Position numbers and translations under genes: made by a program | Origin: Mogibacterium sp. | Lineage (GTDB): Bacteria > Bacillota > Clostridia > Peptostreptococcales > Anaerovoracaceae | Reading direction: 5' to 3' | Assembly (NCBI GenBank): GCA_017512365.1 | Contig: JAFWGQ010000052.1 | Span: 1-46,177 of the forward strand | Length of the DNA stretch: 46,177 nucleotides | In this document: positions 33,297-41,139 of the stretch, one piece after another | How the letters are laid out: every line of letters begins with the position of its first letter | Position numbering within the stretch: the stretch's first letter is position 1 | Notes under the pieces: model-generated | What the model was told of the DNA's origin: nothing | Seen by the model: only the letters and a program-made list of their open reading frames with translations | The model's database searches: none

Positions 33297-33330
33297 TTTT
33301 TCCCATCCTTATGTTACGCTGTCCGGCTGA

Positions 33331-33606
33331 TCAGATGCTGTGTATGGCATTGAAAATGTTCTCATGCATCACATGTATCTCCATTCCCGGAAGTCTGTTC
33401 TTCAGATCCTCTTCAAGCCCGTGGATACTGACGTCCATGGAAGTGAGGTCTATCAGCATGTTCATCGTGAAATACTCGTCCATGACTATCTGGGAGACCT
33501 GCACTATGCTCGCTCCGGCCTCCGCTATGCCGGTCGCGACCGCGGCAAGTATCCCTATGTCGTTTTTGCCCACGACCGTCACCATGGCCTGTTCCTTTTC
33601 TTTCAT
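33331..33606 (-). CDS. ACT-domain protein, UPF0237 family
   Basis: A 91-residue protein made of one ACT domain (about 9-80) with the glycine turn VVGKNDIGILAAVA and the strand IVQVSQIVMDEYFTMNM. ACT domains bind amino acids and regulate enzymes; the ligand here is not known. Length fits the family (about 90) when the ATG at 33606 is used, which has AAGGAGG 11 bases upstream. An in-frame opening to 33681 would add 25 residues with no family match. It is encoded just ahead of its usual partner UPF0210. It is divergent from the VWA operon. Confidence 0.9.
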   Translation of the reverse strand: MKEKEQAMVTVVGKNDIGILAAVATGIAEAGASIVQVSQIVMDEYFTMNMLIDLTSMDVSIHGLEEDLKNRLPGMEIHVMHENIFNAIHSI

Positions 33607-33617
33607 CGCTCCATTGC

Positions 33618-33624
33618 CCTCCTT
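33618..33624 (-). promoter_or_regulatory. Ribosome binding site that fixes the ACT protein start
   Basis: AAGGAGG on the minus strand, 11 bases before the ATG at 33606. Confidence 0.65.
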
Positions 33625-33666
33625 TGCATTTTTTCTTATGTTGCAATGATAGCACAAAACTTTTTT

Positions 33667-33675
33667 TGATATAAT
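33667..33675 (+). promoter_or_regulatory. Extended -10 box seven bases before the VWA operon ATG
   Basis: TGATATAAT, a perfect extended -10, ends at 33675. The predicted transcript start is at or next to the ATG at 33682. No Shine-Dalgarno sequence is present, so the mRNA is probably leaderless. On the other strand TGCTATCAT is a matching extended -10 for the ACT gene. Confidence 0.55.
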
Positions 33676-33681
33676 CTTCAC

Positions 33682-34986
33682 ATGGACAAGCTATCCGAAC
33701 GCGACAAACAGGCCGAGCAGCTGTCCCGGGAGATAATCGAGCTGGCGAGGAATTCGATCCTCGTCAATCTGAGGTTCATGGACCGGGCCGTAGGAAATGT
33801 CCGCCTCGTGCCGGACATGAACTACGGTTTTGCCGGCAGCGGTTCGCACATACTGTACAGTCCATGGACTCTGATCCTTACATACAGGGAGGATCAGAAC
33901 CTCGTCGCCCGCAACCTTCTCCACTGTGTGCTGCACAATGTGTTCAGGCACAACATCACCTTCGAGGGGATAGACCGCCTCAGGTGGGACCTGGCCGCAG
34001 ACATCGCCGTCGAGAACTGCATAAGCGATCTCGGGCAGGGATTTCTCAGCGCTGAGCGCGAGACTCAGCAGGCTGAAGCCATAAGCTTCCTGCGCGGGAA
34101 GCTCAGCCATCTCACCGCGGAACGGATATACGCATATCTGGACAGCGGAGAGGTATCGTTCACGAAGCGTCATGAGTGGAGCGAATGCTTTGCCGGAGAC
34201 CAGCACGATCTCTGGTACGGCGGAGGCCCGTCCGATCTGCTTCTTGCCGGCGACATAGACCTTGAGGAGCTGTGGAAAGACATCGCAAAAAGGATGCAGA
34301 CCGAGCTCGAGCTGCTGCGCAGCGACAGCGGAGCCCTTACCCAGAACCTCAGGGAGATCAACCGCAAAAGATACAACTACACTGAATTCCTGCGGAGATT
34401 CGGCATCCGTTCCGAAAAGATCCGCCTGTCCGAAGAGGAATTCGACAACAATTACTATACCTACGGGCTCGAGCTCTACGGCAACATACCGCTGATCGAG
34501 CCCCTTGAATACAGAGACAGCCGGAACATACGCGACTTCGTCATAGCCATCGACACGTCAGGCAGCGTACAGGGCGAAGTCGTACAGAGATTCGTCCAGC
34601 ACACCCATGACGTCCTCTCTTCCCGTCACAGCTTCGATGTCAGGACCAATCTGTATATAATACAGTGTGACGACCGGATCAGAGACATCTCTCTCATCAG
34701 AAGCAGCGAAGATTTCGACAGATACTTCAGGGAAAAAGAGATAAAAGGCCTGGGTCAGACGGATTTCCGCCCTGTCTTCGAATATGTGGGCAAGCTGATC
34801 GAAGAGCGGAAGCTTACCGACCTGCGCGGTCTGCTATACTTCACCGACGGCATGGGGATGTTCCCCGAAAAAGCGCCCGGCTACGATACAGCCTTCATAA
34901 TACACAACGACAGTCCTGATGATGTATGGGTGCCTGACTGGGCGGTGAAGGTCGAGATGCAGACTGACGAGATCATGAACCTGTGA
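33682..34986 (+). CDS. VWA/DUF2201 protein, partner of the MoxR-like ATPase
   Basis: A 434-residue cytoplasmic protein. The N-terminal half is a DUF2201-type putative metallopeptidase domain, where the expected HExxH...H site reads HCVLHNVFRH (81-90). The zinc-type histidines are kept but the catalytic glutamate is replaced by cysteine. The C-terminal half, about 283-430, is a von Willebrand A domain with a complete MIDAS start, DTSGS at 291-295, and later GLGQTDFRP and FTDGMG. Such VWA proteins work with MoxR AAA+ ATPases as chaperones that mature or insert metals into enzymes (as in the CoxD/CoxE and NorQ/NorD pairs). It is first in a five-gene operon; the next gene overlaps its stop by four bases. 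Confidence 0.85.
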   Translation: MDKLSERDKQAEQLSREIIELARNSILVNLRFMDRAVGNVRLVPDMNYGFAGSGSHILYSPWTLILTYREDQNLVARNLLHCVLHNVFRHNITFEGIDRLRWDLAADIAVENCISDLGQGFLSAERETQQAEAISFLRGKLSHLTAERIYAYLDSGEVSFTKRHEWSECFAGDQHDLWYGGGPSDLLLAGDIDLEELWKDIAKRMQTELELLRSDSGALTQNLREINRKRYNYTEFLRRFGIRSEKIRLSEEEFDNNYYTYGLELYGNIPLIEPLEYRDSRNIRDFVIAIDTSGSVQGEVVQRFVQHTHDVLSSRHSFDVRTNLYIIQCDDRIRDISLIRSSEDFDRYFREKEIKGLGQTDFRPVFEYVGKLIEERKLTDLRGLLYFTDGMGMFPEKAPGYDTAFIIHNDSPDDVWVPDWAVKVEMQTDEIMNL

Positions 34987-35678
34987 CAGCCATGGAGAAA
35001 AACGTTATCGACGGATCCTTAATAAAAGACGGGCGCATCACCGAGGGCGCGTGCATGCAGGATGAGAGCCTGGTATCCGTCGTCATTCCCGAAGGAGTGA
35101 CGGACATAGGCGAAGCCGCCTTCTACGGATGCCCGAATCTCAGGCGTGTCGTCTTCCCCGAAAGCCTCAGGATCATCCGCGAGGAAGCTTTCGGCGATAC
35201 GGGGCTTGAGGAAGCGATCCTCCCTTCCGGCCTGGAGCTGATCGAAGAGGACGCGTTCTTCAGCTGCGAAGCCCTGCGCAGGATCGAAGTCCCCGGCAGG
35301 GACACCGTCATAGGCAAAGATGCTTTCGGATGCTGCGACAACCTCCTGGAAGGATACATCGCGGCGGGTTATCCGGAGGGCATCAGGCATCACGAGGAGC
35401 TGCAGTACACCCTCTTATGGTGCTCGTGTCCGGAAAGGCACAGCGCGGACACCTGCGCGCGCGCCGAAGCCTTTATCCATAAGTATGAAGACCTTATAAT
35501 GGAATGGGTCATCAGATACAACAACATACCCGCCATGAGCGGCATCGCGAGGCGCGGCCTTCTGAGCGGGGACACTGACAGATACATAAAGGCCGCCAAT
35601 CAGGCAGGCAGGAGCGAGATCACCGCCCTTCTCATGTCGATGCGCGGAGGTTTCGACGAAAGCGAGTTTGAACTATGA
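34983..35678 (+). CDS. BspA-type leucine-rich-repeat protein between the VWA and MoxR genes
   Basis: A 231-residue protein. About four LRR_5 (BspA-type) repeats of roughly 23 residues fill residues 25-130 (VTDIGEAAFYGCPNLRRVVF is the clearest). A helical C-terminal part of about 90 residues has no family I know. There is no signal peptide, which is unusual because most BspA-type repeats are on the cell surface. Start: GTG at 34983 overlaps the upstream stop (GTGA); an ATG three codons on is the alternative. The stop overlaps the ATPase start (ATGA). Its place inside the MoxR/VWA unit suggests an adaptor or substrate-recognition role. Confidence 0.82.
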   Translation: MTAMEKNVIDGSLIKDGRITEGACMQDESLVSVVIPEGVTDIGEAAFYGCPNLRRVVFPESLRIIREEAFGDTGLEEAILPSGLELIEEDAFFSCEALRRIEVPGRDTVIGKDAFGCCDNLLEGYIAAGYPEGIRHHEELQYTLLWCSCPERHSADTCARAEAFIHKYEDLIMEWVIRYNNIPAMSGIARRGLLSGDTDRYIKAANQAGRSEITALLMSMRGGFDESEFEL

Positions 35679-37141
35679 ACATAAGCGAAGCAAAACAGCA
35701 GCTGATCAACACCATGAAGGCGTATTCTGCCGCGGACAGGTTCGGGAATCCCCTGCTGCCGCAGGAGGAGCAGCGTCCGCTCTTTCTGATGGGCCCTCCG
35801 GGCATAGGCAAGACCGCTATCGTGAGACAGGTCTGCGAAGAGCTCGGCATAGGTCTTGTCAGCTATTCGATCACGCATCACACGAGGCAGTCTGCACTGG
35901 GACTTCCGAGCATAGTGCACAAGTCCTGGGAGGACGTCGAGTACGATGTGTCCGAATACACCATGAGCGAGATCATCTCCACCGTCTACGATGTCATGAA
36001 CGACACCGGCCTGACCGAGGGCATACTCTTCCTCGACGAGGTGAACTGCGTATCCGAAACTCTCAACCCTTCGATGCTGCAGTTCCTCCAGTTCAAGACC
36101 TTCGGCAGGCACAGGGTCCCTGACGGCTGGGTCATAGTCACCGCCGGGAATCCCGTGGAGTACAACCGCAACGCGCGCGAATTCGACATAGTGACATGGG
36201 ACAGGCTAAAGCGCATAGACATCGAGCCGGATTATGACGCGTGGAAGTCATACGCCTGCAGCACGGATGTCCACGCCTCCGTACTGACCTATCTCGAAGC
36301 GCGCAGATCATCCTTCTACAAGGTGGAAGAGACAGCTGACGGCAGGCAGTTCGTCACCGCAAGAGGCTGGTCCGACCTCAGCAGCATCATAAGGATATAC
36401 GAGAAGCTGGGCATCGGAGTCGACAGGGTCCTCATAGGGCAGTACATACAGGATGCTGAGACTGCCGATGACTTCGCGTCATATTACGACCTGTACAACA
36501 AGTACAGATCGGACTATAAGATCCCTTCCATACTCGCGGGCAGCTCAGATGCCGAGATAGAAAAGCGCGCCTCCGAAGCGCCGTTCGATGAGAGGCTCTC
36601 TCTCATCGGCCTTCTGCTGGACAATGTGCAGTCGGATATATCGGCTGTGGTACGGACCGAAGATCATGCAGCGGAGCTCGTGAAGCTGCTGCGCCGGGTA
36701 AAGGAAGGCGAAGATATCGGAAGCGTCATCGAAGAAGAGGAAGCCGTATATCAGCGCTTCCGCCGCATGGGAGTGCTTTCGCGCGACGCCGGGCTCAAAT
36801 ATGAAAGCGTCCTGGAGTTCCTGCGCTCGCATGAGGACAGCGCGGACTTCGGCCGTGTAAAACAAGACTACGACAGCATCATCGCGGACATGAAGAAGTC
36901 AGCTGAAGAAGCGCGGACGCGCCTTGACAATCTCTTCGCCTTTGCCGAAAAGGTCTGGGGCGAAGGTCAGGAGATGGTCATACTCGTCACGGAACTCACC
37001 ATCGGTATATACTCATCGAGATTCATATCCAGATATGGATGCGATGCATATTACAGATACAACGATTCGTTAAAGCTTTATGAGAGAAAACTGGAGATCC
37101 TGAAGAAAGGAGAGGAATTATGGCAGCAAAATACGATGTAG
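35675..37141 (+). CDS. MoxR-like AAA+ ATPase
   Basis: A 488-residue ATPase. Walker A GPPGIGKT is at 40-47, Walker B ILFLDEVN near 117, sensor 1 in VTAGNP near 152, and a late ARGWSDL near 232. The AAA+ core ends by about 260; the remaining 220 residues are helical and acidic, with a coiled-coil-like segment around 370-430. MoxR-type ATPases remodel or metallate target enzymes with VWA partners, and the VWA gene is two genes upstream. Its 3' end overlaps the flavoprotein gene by 22 bases, and that gene's ribosome site (AAAGGAG) lies inside it, tightly linking the chaperone and the redox genes. Confidence 0.9.
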   Translation: MNISEAKQQLINTMKAYSAADRFGNPLLPQEEQRPLFLMGPPGIGKTAIVRQVCEELGIGLVSYSITHHTRQSALGLPSIVHKSWEDVEYDVSEYTMSEIISTVYDVMNDTGLTEGILFLDEVNCVSETLNPSMLQFLQFKTFGRHRVPDGWVIVTAGNPVEYNRNAREFDIVTWDRLKRIDIEPDYDAWKSYACSTDVHASVLTYLEARRSSFYKVEETADGRQFVTARGWSDLSSIIRIYEKLGIGVDRVLIGQYIQDAETADDFASYYDLYNKYRSDYKIPSILAGSSDAEIEKRASEAPFDERLSLIGLLLDNVQSDISAVVRTEDHAAELVKLLRRVKEGEDIGSVIEEEEAVYQRFRRMGVLSRDAGLKYESVLEFLRSHEDSADFGRVKQDYDSIIADMKKSAEEARTRLDNLFAFAEKVWGEGQEMVILVTELTIGIYSSRFISRYGCDAYYRYNDSLKLYERKLEILKKGEELWQQNTM

Positions 37142-38658
37142 TTGTTGTCGGAGCAGGAAACGCCGGTCTCAGCGCAGCAGTCAAGTGCGCAGTCGAGGGA
37201 AAGAAGACCCTCCTCATCGACCAGCACAACCTGCCCGGCGGATGCGCGTCAAGCTTCAGACGGGGGCGCTTCGAATTCGACCCGAGCGTCCATGAGATCT
37301 GCGACTTCGGTCCTGAGGACAACAAGGGCCATGTCAGGCTTCTCATGGAAAGAAATGGAGTCAATGTCGACTGGATCACCGTCCCTGAATGCTACAGGTG
37401 CATTTCCACCTATTCTGACGGCACCCCTATGGATGTCACCATGCCGTGCGGCCGCGAGGAATACATAGCCGCGATGGAAAAGTACGTGCCCGGCTCAAGG
37501 GAATCGATGGAGAAGTTCTTCGATCTGCTTCTTGAGATCAGAGCAGCGAAGGTATACATGAACGACGGCACGCCGAACGATTCCAAGTACATGCAGAAGC
37601 ACTTCCCTAACACTCTGAGGTCCTGCGGCTACGATGCGCTGAAGGTCATGAAGGCCCTGAAGATACCTCAGAAGGCCATAGACATCATCGGAGTGTACTG
37701 GCCGTACCTGGGCGTTCCGCTGGATACCATCAACTTCTTCCACTTCGGCAACATGATAGACATGTATGTCATCCGCCAGGCGGTCATCCCTCACCATACA
37801 TCACACGAGATCTCGATGACCTTCATGAACAGGTTCTACGAGCTCGGCGGAGAGGCGTGGTTCAACTGCAGAGCCGAAGAGTTCCTCTTCGACGGCGACA
37901 GGGTCTGCGGAGTCAGGACGAGCCTCGGCGATGTCGAGTGCGATCAGGTCCTCGCGAACATCAACCCTGACATCATCGATGCAAAGATGATCCCTAAGGA
38001 AATGGTCCCTGAAAGGGACAAGAAGCTTTCGGCCGCAAGGAACAAAAAGTTCAGCACCAAGTTCTGCATGATCTACATGGCGCTCAACAAGCCTGCGGAG
38101 GAGCTCGGCCTCGACGACTACTGCGTGTTCTTCGCCGAGACAGCAGACTCGCGCAAGGAATACGAGTACATGAAGAGCATAGACAACGACTACAACATCC
38201 TGATCAGCTACAATACGCTCATACCTGACTTCTCGCCTGAGGGGACCTGCGTGATCAGCTTCACCAAGCTCTTCAGCGAGTCGGATGACTGGGCGAAGCT
38301 CACTCCGGAAGAGTACTACAAGGTCAAGGACAAAATGATCGAAAAGTGCATAGACGATGTGAAGAAGAGGCTCGGCATCGATATCTCCCCTTACATCGAG
38401 GAAGTCGAAGTCGCGACGCCTATGACATTCGCCAGATACCTCGGCACTCCGGACGGCACGCCTTACGGATTCGAGGTAAGCGACTGGGACGGCATAATCG
38501 CCAGGATGATGGACATCGAGGCGGACTTCACGATAAAGGGTCTCCGCCACATAGGCGCCGGCTCGTTCATGGCGGACGGCTATTCATCGACATGGATCAA
38601 CGGAGATCTTTCCGCCGCCCTTGCCTGCAGGGATCTCAAGGAAGGAGGTAAACAGTAA
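37120..38658 (+). CDS. CrtI/phytoene desaturase-like flavoprotein
   Basis: A 512-residue FAD-dependent oxidoreductase. The dinucleotide-binding motif VVGAGNAGLSAA is at 8-19, GGCASSFRRG near 41 follows as in phytoene desaturases, and the late FAD motif IGAGSFMADGYSSTW lies near 483-497. It resembles the CrtI/CrtO-like amine-oxidase-fold group, but no carotenoid genes are present, so the substrate is unlikely to be phytoene. AAAGGAGAGG precedes the ATG. Its stop shares one base with the start of the ferredoxin reductase-like gene (TAATG), which should supply or take its electrons. Confidence 0.9.
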   Translation: MAAKYDVVVVGAGNAGLSAAVKCAVEGKKTLLIDQHNLPGGCASSFRRGRFEFDPSVHEICDFGPEDNKGHVRLLMERNGVNVDWITVPECYRCISTYSDGTPMDVTMPCGREEYIAAMEKYVPGSRESMEKFFDLLLEIRAAKVYMNDGTPNDSKYMQKHFPNTLRSCGYDALKVMKALKIPQKAIDIIGVYWPYLGVPLDTINFFHFGNMIDMYVIRQAVIPHHTSHEISMTFMNRFYELGGEAWFNCRAEEFLFDGDRVCGVRTSLGDVECDQVLANINPDIIDAKMIPKEMVPERDKKLSAARNKKFSTKFCMIYMALNKPAEELGLDDYCVFFAETADSRKEYEYMKSIDNDYNILISYNTLIPDFSPEGTCVISFTKLFSESDDWAKLTPEEYYKVKDKMIEKCIDDVKKRLGIDISPYIEEVEVATPMTFARYLGTPDGTPYGFEVSDWDGIIARMMDIEADFTIKGLRHIGAGSFMADGYSSTWINGDLSAALACRDLKEGGKQ

Positions 38659-39866
38659 TGGCACTTAATTTCAAAGTAGGAATCATAGGACTTCTGGACA
38701 TGCTCAGGTTCGCCAACCTCTCGAAGGAAAGAGAAAAAGTCATCGCTGCTGCTCCTGCCAACGAGATCACGGCAGACTATCCGGTGAATAATTTTGCAAA
38801 GGCCATGCACCCTGACTTCCAGCAGTTCGTGATCGATGAGATCATCGACCACGCCGCCGCGGGGGCAAAAACTTTCGTTCTCAAAAGAGCTGACGGCAAG
38901 CCGGCTTCATATTTCAGGGCGGGCCAGTACATCTCGCTCAAGCTCCCAATCGAGGGAAGCTTCGTGACGCGTCCATACTCCATCTCCTCTTCGCCGAAGT
39001 GGGCTCTCGAGGGCAAGGTCGCCGTCACGGTCAAGACCAATCCGGACGGTTTCGCGGCCGACTGGATGCTTGATAACTTCAAGGTCGGCGACGAGGTAAA
39101 GGGATCCGAAGGTCTGGGATCGTTCTATTATCAGAAGTACAGGGACGCCGGACATGTGGTCGCCCTCGCGGGCGGATCGGGCATCACGCCGTTCCTTTCG
39201 ATGGCATACGCCATAAGAGACGGCATCGAGGACTTTGATCTGACCATACTCTTCGGAAGCAGGACTGAAGAGTCCATACTGTTCAGGGATGAATTCGACA
39301 GGATCATGTCCGAGACGGACAGGGTAAAGGTCGTACACATCCTCTCCGACGAGAAGAAGAAAGGATTCGAGAACGGCTTCATCACGGCAGACATAATCAA
39401 AAAATACGCCGGCGGCGAGCCGTACAGCGTATTCATCTGCGGACCTGAAGCGATGTACCGCTTCATTTCCAAGGAAGTCGAAAAGCTCGGCCTTGAGAAG
39501 AAATTCGTGCGCAGCGAATTCCTCGGCGCCACAAAGACGGTCTGGGAGCAGAAAGGCTATCCGAAGAAGGCGAAGGACAAGGTCTTCAAGCTGACCGTAA
39601 AGCAGGGGCCGAACGAGTACGTATGCGACTGCTCGGCCAACGAGCCTATACTGGTAGCTATCGAGCGCGCAGGCATCAAGGCCCCTTCAAAATGCAGATC
39701 GGGCGACTGCGGCTGGTGCCGCTCCCGCGTGACATCCGGTGAGGTGTTCATACCGGAAGAGACCGACGGAAGAAGATGGGCGGACAAGCAGTGCGGAGAG
39801 ATCCATCCATGCACTAGCTTTGCCGTATCGGACATAAGCATCACCGTCCCGGGCGAGTATTTCTAG
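38658..39866 (+). CDS. Ferredoxin-NAD(P) reductase-like protein with 2Fe-2S domain
   Basis: A 402-residue electron-transfer protein. A unique N-terminal segment of about 60 residues is followed by an FAD-binding barrel (motif RPYSISS near 105), an NAD(P)-binding domain (GGSGITPFLSMA near 175, and ICGPEAMYRF near 258) and a plant-type 2Fe-2S ferredoxin domain at about 312-402. The cluster cysteines are C346, C351, C354 and C385. It is built like single-chain reductases that pass electrons from NAD(P)H through FAD to a 2Fe-2S cluster and then a partner, here most likely the CrtI-like flavoprotein encoded one base upstream. The last gene of the operon, with a strong terminator. Confidence 0.92.
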   Translation: MALNFKVGIIGLLDMLRFANLSKEREKVIAAAPANEITADYPVNNFAKAMHPDFQQFVIDEIIDHAAAGAKTFVLKRADGKPASYFRAGQYISLKLPIEGSFVTRPYSISSSPKWALEGKVAVTVKTNPDGFAADWMLDNFKVGDEVKGSEGLGSFYYQKYRDAGHVVALAGGSGITPFLSMAYAIRDGIEDFDLTILFGSRTEESILFRDEFDRIMSETDRVKVVHILSDEKKKGFENGFITADIIKKYAGGEPYSVFICGPEAMYRFISKEVEKLGLEKKFVRSEFLGATKTVWEQKGYPKKAKDKVFKLTVKQGPNEYVCDCSANEPILVAIERAGIKAPSKCRSGDCGWCRSRVTSGEVFIPEETDGRRWADKQCGEIHPCTSFAVSDISITVPGEYF

Positions 39867-39891
39867 GCCAAGGTTTTATACACACGATCAA

Positions 39892-39920
39892 AGAGGCTTC
39901 ACAGCGAAGCCTCTTTTTTT
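39892..39920 (+). terminator. Intrinsic terminator of the VWA-MoxR-flavoprotein operon
   Basis: A perfect 9-bp stem, AGAGGCTTC with GAAGCCTCT, encloses a 5-base loop and is followed by six T. Confidence 0.92.
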
Positions 39921-39921
39921 A

Positions 39922-41139
39922 TCACTTTTTGCCGTAAAACACCTCATCGAAGCCGTCTTCCAGTATGAATTTCCCATACTCCACCAGCTCATCGAAGGTA
40001 TCCATCACAGCTATGAACATCCTGTTTCCCATGGCTGCAGCGAAGATATCCGGCATCCTGCCGTGCATGACGATCCTGTCGCGGTATCTGTCCAGCACCT
40101 CGCTGTCGTCAGCTTCATGCGAATGCGAGTCCTTTCTGCTGGCAAAAGCGCAGTACCGGTCCTTCCCGTTTTCCGGCTGCAGCCTTTTATCATGAGTCAC
40201 CATGTCGGCATATATCTGATAAACATCGCAGGAATGCGCGAAATCGATCATGTCCGTCGTATATCCGCCGGCAGGCCTCATGTTGACCTCAAGGCCGACG
40301 AAGTCCCCGGCTTCTCCCAGCCCCTTTCTCGCCTTGCTGAGCCTGAAGAATTCGAAATGGATGAACCTTCGCCTTACGCCGAAAGCCTTTACGGCTTTGC
40401 GCCCGCGGTCGCGCAGCTGGTCCGGGATATCCGGGAGCACATAATACAGCACTTCCTGATCGTCATTGACAGACTCCGCTACATTCGGGCACTTGAAGCA
40501 CGATTCGAACAGGATGCTGCCTTCGGAATCAACGATGGCATCGTATGAATAGATGTCCCCTTCCACGTACTCCTCAATGACGTACGGAGTTCCGGATACA
40601 GCGCTGAAGAACGCCTGAAGATCCTCTTCATTGTCTATCCTGAAGGTGTCTGTCGCACCTACTCCAAGCTCAGGCTTTGCGAATACAGGATATCCGCCGC
40701 AGTCTTCTATGAATCCTTTTGCGGAACTGATGCCCGTGACCCTGTGGCTCCTCGCAGACGGGATCCCCGCAGACTTATATACCGGTTTCATGACATACTT
40801 GCTCTTCCATCCGCTCAGTTCCTCCGGCCTTACCCCGGTAGAAACATTGAAGTCCTCCCTGAGCTTCGCGTCAAGGGCCAGCCAGTACTCATTGTTGGAT
40901 TCTATCCAGTCGATCCTCCCGTATCTGAACGCGTAATAAGCCGCAGCTCTGTAAACAGCATCATAGTCTTCAAGAGTATCGACTCTGTAATACTCAGTCA
41001 GAGCGTTTTTCAGTTCATCGGACAGGCCCTCATACGGAGCATCGCCTATTCCCAGCACATTGCATCCGTTGCTTCTGAGCCTCTCGCAGAAGTGCACGTA
41101 ATTGAACGGAAAATTCGGTGATATAAATACGTAATTCAT
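39922..41139 (-). CDS. ATP-grasp domain protein
   Basis: A 405-residue ligase-like protein. The N-terminal part (MNYVFISPNFPFNYVHFCER) is a pre-ATP-grasp domain. The ATP-grasp fold covers about 115-320, with the lysine in PVFAKPELGVGATD, the VIEEYVEGDIYSYDAIV strand and the metal-site LEVNMRPAGGYTTDM. It resembles biotin carboxylase/carbamoyl-phosphate synthase-like and peptide-ligase ATP-grasp proteins; the acyl and amine substrates are unknown. AGAGGG precedes the ATG closely. The gene sits after a broken MFS transporter and a dipeptidase, so it may once have been part of a make-and-export unit for a small amide. It is convergent with the redox operon. Confidence 0.88.
   Translation of the reverse strand: MNYVFISPNFPFNYVHFCERLRSNGCNVLGIGDAPYEGLSDELKNALTEYYRVDTLEDYDAVYRAAAYYAFRYGRIDWIESNNEYWLALDAKLREDFNVSTGVRPEELSGWKSKYVMKPVYKSAGIPSARSHRVTGISSAKGFIEDCGGYPVFAKPELGVGATDTFRIDNEEDLQAFFSAVSGTPYVIEEYVEGDIYSYDAIVDSEGSILFESCFKCPNVAESVNDDQEVLYYVLPDIPDQLRDRGRKAVKAFGVRRRFIHFEFFRLSKARKGLGEAGDFVGLEVNMRPAGGYTTDMIDFAHSCDVYQIYADMVTHDKRLQPENGKDRYCAFASRKDSHSHEADDSEVLDRYRDRIVMHGRMPDIFAAAMGNRMFIAVMDTFDELVEYGKFILEDGFDEVFYGKK

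Follow-up and report, generated by a model that had tools for sequence, protein, structure and literature searches.

A VWA-LRR-AAA+ gene trio of Clostridia, linked through one AAA+ clade to a CrtI-like flavoprotein and its reductase in Mogibacterium

A 46,177-nt stretch of Mogibacterium sp. DNA (contig JAFWGQ010000052.1, assembly GCA_017512365.1), referred to as the window, carries at 33682..39866 a five-gene operon encoding a VWA-domain protein (gene 1), a leucine-rich-repeat (LRR) protein (gene 2), a MoxR-like AAA+ ATPase (gene 3, AAA), a CrtI-like flavoprotein (gene 4, CRT) and a reductase (gene 5, FNR). Comparing this operon with its relatives, we found that the link between AAA and CRT is exclusive to one clade of AAA proteins, which we call class I. 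We propose that genes 1-3 constitute one class of a Clostridia-wide remodelling module and that class I is dedicated to the neighbouring CRT-FNR pair, a reading to which we assign a probability of about 0.48. All of the evidence is comparative. The AAA relatives, 228 in number, were found in one search of genome contigs and the best 80 of the 228 were read; their genomes are mostly draft assemblies, several of them contaminated, and gene calling in them was crude. The window's own assembly is 92.9% complete with 6.94% contamination. Genomes, loci and contigs are labelled G, L and C, respectively, the window's genome being G000.

Of 106 AAA proteins placed on a tree, 11 are linked to CRT; these formed a single clade (Shimodaira-Hasegawa-like approximate likelihood ratio test, SH-aLRT, 100), and none of the other 95 was so linked, four of these 95 having less than 300 nt and eight less than 1 kb of sequence downstream. 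A careful tree of 47 rows recovered the same CRT-linked clade with support of 100/99. The clade was also found in a 59-row tree that took in every one of the 47 AAA places in the genus, together with 12 others, so that its members were not picked by neighbour: the class I clade held 14 rows (SH-aLRT 99) and CRT stood right behind AAA in 14/14 of them, as against 0/45 of the others. Considering the genus only, 12/12 class I genes were linked to CRT versus 0/35 other AAA genes, three of the 35 having less than 150 nt downstream (p = 1.9e-11, Fisher's exact test; Fisher values here and below ignore kinship). The single clade in the tree is a fairer statement of this result than the p values. Identity within class I can be low, as the AAA proteins of G011 and G022 are only 55-57% identical to that of the window.

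An initial annotation of the window had described these genes as one operon, and this description was borne out: the five open reading frames (ORFs) are where it had placed them, all on the + strand, with a single + strand terminator. Ten genomes of the genus, among them that of the window, have the five genes in one direction, and G011 and G629 carry a variant in which VWA is divergent and the other four genes are in line (the VWA frame of G011 is short and lies near a contig end). Outside the genus list there are two more such loci, L005, which is complete, and L006, which is cut by a contig end inside CRT. Because the same five genes recur across genomes of the genus and in L005 and L006, the block is more than a chance association. 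From 5' to 3', consecutive genes of the window operon overlap by 4, 4, 22 and 1 nt. The LRR-AAA overlap measures 4 nt in 9/11 loci, that of AAA and CRT 22 nt (seven loci) or 25 nt (two loci) among 11, and that of CRT and FNR 1 nt in all ten loci holding FNR; the VWA-LRR junction is variable among class I loci. A flanking gene was in common for only 9/55 locus pairs, with up to four genes considered on each side and some flanks short or missing. The block persists in changing surroundings. In G004, G010, G012, G029 and G634 a CRT of another type (type B) stands divergently beside the operon, accompanied by FNR where the contig reaches; on that contig of G010 only the start of the type B gene is present. 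G010 contigs C33 and C67 hold two versions of the VWA/type B CRT region, one with a stop in CRT, and are probably derived from mixed strains.

By Pfam, gene 1 carries DUF2201 and DUF2201_N above their cut-offs, gene 2 carries LRR_5, and gene 3 carries AAA and AAA_5 above cut-off, with bpMoxR just under (25.1 versus 27 bits); the label 'MoxR-like' for gene 3, like 'CrtI-like' for gene 4, is looser than it sounds. Residues G40, P42-G43, G45-K46-T47 and D121-E122 of the AAA protein were invariant among 18 aligned rows, indicating that Walker A and Walker B are present. The metal ion-dependent adhesion site (MIDAS) motif of the VWA protein, DTSGS-T-D (DxSxS-T-D), is intact, and its residues were kept among the commonest variants listed in a motif tally of 95 VWA proteins. 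The motif HExxH was absent from the class I (0/10) and from the other VWA proteins (0/85, at least two of which are gapped there). VWA residues H81, H85, H90 and E111 are invariant in 14 aligned relatives, and the protein may hold a metal site lacking a catalytic Glu. DUF2201_N is a putative metallopeptidase domain; because HExxH is missing, we discounted a metalloprotease role for gene 1.

For 62 AAA loci the sequence extends 2.5 kb or more to either side. A VWA gene accompanies AAA in 61 of them, and in 51 there is an LRR_5 gene no farther than about 2.5 kb away; the LRR gene is placed between VWA and AAA, behind AAA or ahead of VWA. An AAA match was found in 56/197 genomes of the family (E up to 0.001, weak P-loop matches included). 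The trio is a Clostridia-wide module. At five loci where LRR is not nearby (L019, L023, L034, L040 and L077), a protein of 634-659 aa is encoded directly 5' of VWA; the copy of L040 was scanned and consists of Peripla_BP and GGDEF, and the other four were assigned to it by clustering.

A second AAA clade of the genus, class II, has fixed company of its own. The other VWA-AAA copy of the window's genome (L114; G000 contig C39, 3172-15576) lies within a run of corrin genes in the order CbiJ with tetrapyrrole methylase, CbiA, VWA, AAA, URO-D-family methyltransferase, B12-binding corrinoid protein, RACo, a second URO-D protein and LRR. Class II comprises 18 genus members (SH-aLRT 100), and the corrinoid methyltransferase-RACo cassette or its start was detected in 15 of them (L114, L216-L218, L220-L224, L232, L234, L235, which is the same record as L073, L238, L240 and L241). 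These 15 include near-copies from G015 and G636; the cassette is cut by contig ends in L240 and L241 and begins 3.1 kb after AAA in L238 (G028). The remaining three end too soon, with less than 150 nt downstream in L243 and L244 and 1.8 kb in L219 (G008, sister of G028). Located 5' of most class II loci are hemC, a cobA/hemD-like gene, a tetrapyrrole methylase, part of an ABC transporter and a precorrin-2 dehydrogenase-like protein, as called by Pfam on L217 and by clustering in the rest. RACo carries a Fer2 domain, as does FNR in class I. Class II represents an independent association of the module with a redox-cofactor enzyme, pointing the same way as class I. A third clade, class III, has 17 members in the genus, and the nine loci read closely (L208-L215 and L225) have the order LRR-VWA-AAA.

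The combination of MoxR, VWA and a third protein recalls the MoxR-vWA ternary conflict systems, and the trio could be such an anti-phage defence system, with the redox pair as effector or bystander. We consider this highly improbable. It is in keeping with the score of bpMoxR, a model named for such systems, on gene 3, with the presence of a third component beside MoxR and VWA, with the variability of the LRR partner, and with weak PADLOC matches, namely IetA on gene 3 (17.9 and 14.3 bits) and, in gene 4, a 'C-3',4' desaturase' model matching the first 48 residues (31.6 bits). However, bpMoxR stays under its cut-off, the third protein here is LRR_5, the PADLOC matches span nucleotide-binding regions only, and two AAA classes have metabolic neighbours. 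Of the features described for conflict systems in excerpts of PMC7159879, no VMAP, iSTAND or FtsH component and no VWA-fused effector was called in genes 1-5.

Gene 4 falls by Pfam into generic FAD/NAD(P) Rossmann families. It scored far under the cut-off of all 25 NCBIfam models listed, with 88.5 bits against a cut-off of 586.9 for carotenoid isomerase and 77.1 against 549.7 and 57.5 against 238.1 bits for further CrtI/CrtISO/CrtD models. The best solved relative by sequence is the gamma-carotene desaturase 4rep (E 4.5e-8). Because the NCBIfam matches are far below cut-off, we regard CRT as a distant relative and would not name it a carotenoid enzyme; among the scanned neighbours of CRT there were no carotenoid genes. 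The similarity to CrtI, CrtISO and CrtD enzymes is at family level and covers most of the length of CRT, which, unlike them, is nearly always paired with an FNR-[2Fe-2S] protein. In gene 5, FAD_binding_6, NAD_binding_1 and Fer2 were all found above the Pfam cut-off. This arrangement of FAD-binding, NAD-binding and C-terminal Fer2 domains resembles the BenC/PaaE-type NAD(P)H reductases, PaaE being the best NCBIfam match of FNR. FNR differs from them in an N-terminal extension of about 70 aa, in scores under the cut-off of the NCBIfam models listed, and in having a CrtI-like flavoprotein and not an oxygenase as its partner.

At 52 of the 53 strong CRT places in relatives (52 places in the genus and one in the order), FNR came next, in the orientation of CRT and no more than 400 nt away; the exception lies at a contig end. 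CRT was also found at E up to 1e-30 in 16/390 other genomes of the class. FNR directly follows it in 14 of the 16 loci fetched (not in L196 and L200), and no AAA gene lies in the stretches of these loci, which are of unequal length. CRT-FNR is an independent pair, general in relatives. CRT is often present in multiple copies per genome, the window's genome having three, and additional copies belonging to types A-C, the nearer ones, are present more often in genomes with class I than in others (10/12 versus 7/35, Fisher p = 1.7e-4). Two tandem CRT-FNR pairs stand beside an alpha/beta hydrolase, a GDPD and a carboxylesterase in L115 (3532-12821, G000 contig C17), and solo copies elsewhere lie near a lipid kinase (L158) and an acyl-AMP ligase (L197). 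Other neighbours of solo CRT encode an MFS symporter, a homocysteine methyltransferase, a ketopantoate reductase and a rubredoxin reductase. There is a hint of a substrate among unsaturated lipids, or of fatty-acid hydrogenation, to which we do not commit because the neighbours differ from copy to copy and there was no gene-level match among those listed in the open-access literature. Some distant CRT-FNR pairs are preceded by an Amino_oxidase-family flavoprotein (L161 8438-10105, L199 3891-5258 and L163 6136-7182).

MoxR/VWA pairs are common and few have a known client; CoxD-CoxE and CbbQ-CbbO are activators of this kind, like NorQ-NorD. By analogy with the known pairs, in which the VWA protein holds the client and the AAA+ ring remodels it, the class I module may act on CRT. 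The MoxR-like ATPase, presumably a hexamer, would be the motor of the complex, the VWA/DUF2201 protein would bind the client through its MIDAS site, and the LRR_5 protein would serve as recognition or adaptor subunit, its conserved C-terminal tail tethering it to the motor. Electrons would flow from NAD(P)H through the FAD and [2Fe-2S] of FNR to CRT. The module might load or release the flavin of CRT, reactivate the enzyme or hold it in check, and the translational overlaps would keep the five proteins in step. In contrast to NorQ-NorD, CoxD-CoxE and CbbQ-CbbO, the putative client here is a flavoprotein and not a metal site or rubisco, the LRR protein is a third subunit, and the architecture is that of DUF2201. 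NorQ-NorD is likewise encoded in the operon of its enzyme, and according to excerpts of PMC9976466 it requires both MIDAS and Walker motifs, the MIDAS residues of NorD being needed for NOR activity and not for NorQ binding. ATP-driven remodelling is its proposed action (excerpts of PMC9976466 and PMC13036017), the NorQ complex having been suggested to twist and stretch the NorD linker (PMC13036017).

RavA-ViaA of E. coli, in which an AAA+ gene also adjoins a VWA gene and the VWA protein has a VWA domain, offers a comparison of the opposite sense; neither an LRR nor an frd gene stands beside ravA-viaA. The reported client of ViaA is the flavoprotein subunit of an anaerobic redox enzyme, and in the portions of PMC10585395 on which we draw, the VWA domain of ViaA binds this flavoprotein, FrdA, and RavA-ViaA lowers the activity of fumarate reductase (Frd). 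The module could accordingly be a switch-off device that binds the flavoprotein via the VWA protein and lowers its activity. CRT-FNR copies standing without the module would be expected of a regulator rather than of an obligatory maturase. We nevertheless hold a switch-off function to be quite improbable: the likeness to RavA is confined to 22 aligned columns around Walker A (hhalign, probability 76.5%) and that to ViaA to part of the VWA domain (105 columns, probability 34%), neither amounting to full-length orthology. Moreover, NorQD activates its client (excerpts of PMC9976466), and the effect on Frd is disputed, contrary results being noted in the discussion of PMC10585395 itself. As to how the class I module affects CRT, we lean towards activation over inhibition.

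The LRR proteins have a feature that bears on how the module might be held together, namely a short conserved end peptide behind a linker of variable length. In the window, a conserved C-terminal part (...EITALLM...) is followed by the tail EFEL; this part is kept in class I proteins and is detectable in L072 and L007. The C-terminal pattern [FYWLIM]-x-L was present in 60/79 LRR proteins near AAA versus 21/641 other genes of those loci, and in 47/56 LRR proteins at most 200 nt from AAA. The pattern was derived from the same data and the proteins are related, and these counts are therefore a description and not an independent test. Among the members examined, tails vary by class: EFEL or EFDL in class I, DPFx in ten of class II and mostly [DE]EL in the nine class III loci. 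Before the linker most share a helix of [TC]-[AL] type (e.g. EITALLL, ECTAFLL), from which the proteins of G011, G022 and G629 deviate. A docking tail would be the natural reading of this peptide. The proposal of the initial annotation that the LRR protein is an adaptor fits the conserved tail, and the role stays a proposed one. Many AAA proteins outside class I end in LxL (SLDL, ALEL, KLDL), resembling the LRR tails; that of the window ends in NTM, where AAA overlaps CRT.

Going beyond class I, Clostridia might carry three-part, client-specific reactivases, some classes of which would each serve one redox-cofactor enzyme dependent on a [2Fe-2S] partner for its reductive activation (CRT with FNR in class I, corrinoid methyltransferase with RACo in class II); the LRR protein would set the client and a class-specific C-terminal peptide would dock on the motor. 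We think this rather unlikely.

Several findings weigh against a module dedicated to CRT-FNR, to which the disputed Frd effect also belongs. Of the 53 strong CRT places, 44 have no class I AAA in front and only nine stand behind it. Five genus genomes have CRT and no AAA match (G002, G003, G013, G019 and G030), and close copies of CRT (type A, 81-84%) are found apart from the module in G011, G629 and G019, the last of these genomes being 77% complete. Since most CRT-FNR pairs lack the trio, their production does not in general require it; at most, the trio is dedicated to one branch. Class III keeps no fixed enzyme neighbour, which speaks against a simple rule. We also looked for a client signature, defined as residues common to both operon types and absent from solo type B. 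In CRT there was no excess (11 columns versus 20 and 47 for other groupings), and in FNR the signature was only slight (17 columns versus 13 and 14). Finally, a single ancient event, inherited ever since, may account for the linkage.

It is conceivable, then, that the trio has its own job, in the membrane, in stress or on a client in trans, and that CRT-FNR is merely co-transcribed with it after one ancestral insertion, the overlap being kept by descent. VWA-AAA and LRR are widespread without CRT, as is CRT-FNR without the trio, the linkage maps to a single branch of the AAA tree, the absence of a client signature in CRT would be expected, and gene overlap by itself can preserve adjacency. Yet no class I AAA was seen without CRT even at 55-57% identity, the flanks change around the block, and a second clade has redox-cofactor neighbours of its own. 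A single origin of both operon types of CRT was weakly rejected on the concatenated CRT+FNR tree (approximately unbiased test, p-AU 0.035), where the two types stand apart; this weakly suggests that the partner was swapped for one of the same kind, a result on which we do not lean. We judge an independent job of the trio to be somewhat unlikely. The proposal of the initial annotation that the trio serves the flavoprotein and its reductase stands in part: the exclusive clade link, the conserved overlaps, the changing flanks and the redox company of class II speak for it, and the occurrence of the trio beside many other genes and of CRT-FNR mostly without it speaks against it. As contrary evidence the annotation had named a trio standing beside unrelated genes and a redox pair with independent neighbours. 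Both were found in part, the trio being Clostridia-wide and CRT-FNR standing mostly apart from it.

The features of the operon are collected in Table 1. Since the promoter-like site ends 6 nt 5' of the ATG of VWA, the mRNA is probably leaderless or nearly so. TATAAT was also seen, by eye, 8, 8 and 12 nt 5' of the start codon in L005, L006 and L166, respectively, and not in the other relatives compared. A second, weaker + strand promoter-like site (9/12 matches) lies inside gene 3 at 36984-37013, and the terminator-like site at 39890-39916 is the sole one on the + strand in 33300-40200. Totals of such sites were at or near chance (promoter-like 4 versus 4.1 and terminator-like 8 versus 5.0 in shuffles), but the better + strand promoter-like site and the + strand terminator-like site stand at the two ends of the operon. 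An ATP-grasp protein of unassigned function is encoded convergently with the operon at 39922-41139 (- strand). Scans of the window for Rfam families and tRNA genes found none.

Table 1. Genes and candidate signals of the five-gene operon, in window coordinates
Feature	Position	Strand	Basis	Proposed role
Promoter-like site, extended -10 (TG before TATAAT), 10/12 matches	33646..33675	+	site scan	
VWA protein (DUF2201_N + DUF2201/VWA), 434 aa	33682..34986	+	ORF, Pfam	
LRR_5 (BspA-type) protein, 231 aa, GTG start	34983..35678	+	ORF, Pfam	proposed adaptor
MoxR-like AAA+ ATPase, 488 aa, Walker A GPPGIGKT, Walker B LFLDE	35675..37141	+	ORF, Pfam	
CRT, CrtI/CrtISO-like FAD flavoprotein, 512 aa	37120..38658	+	ORF, Pfam, NCBIfam	proposed client
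FNR-type reductase, C-terminal plant-type [2Fe-2S] domain, 402 aa	38658..39866	+	ORF, Pfam, NCBIfam	proposed electron donor of CRT
Intrinsic terminator-like hairpin and T tail	39890..39916	+	site scan	

To our knowledge, no MoxR/VWA pair has been known with an LRR subunit or linked to a CrtI-like flavoprotein or to corrinoid methyltransferases, and among the matches listed in the open-access literature no such LRR, CrtI-like or corrinoid link of a MoxR/VWA pair was present. The neighbours that the trio keeps suggest a helper family in which certain kinds are each dedicated to a single redox enzyme. Since distinct AAA clades go with different fixed redox enzymes, and one genome holds two of these clades, client specificity can be tested directly, and a first handle on the role of the multi-copy CRT-FNR pairs in gut anaerobes would follow.

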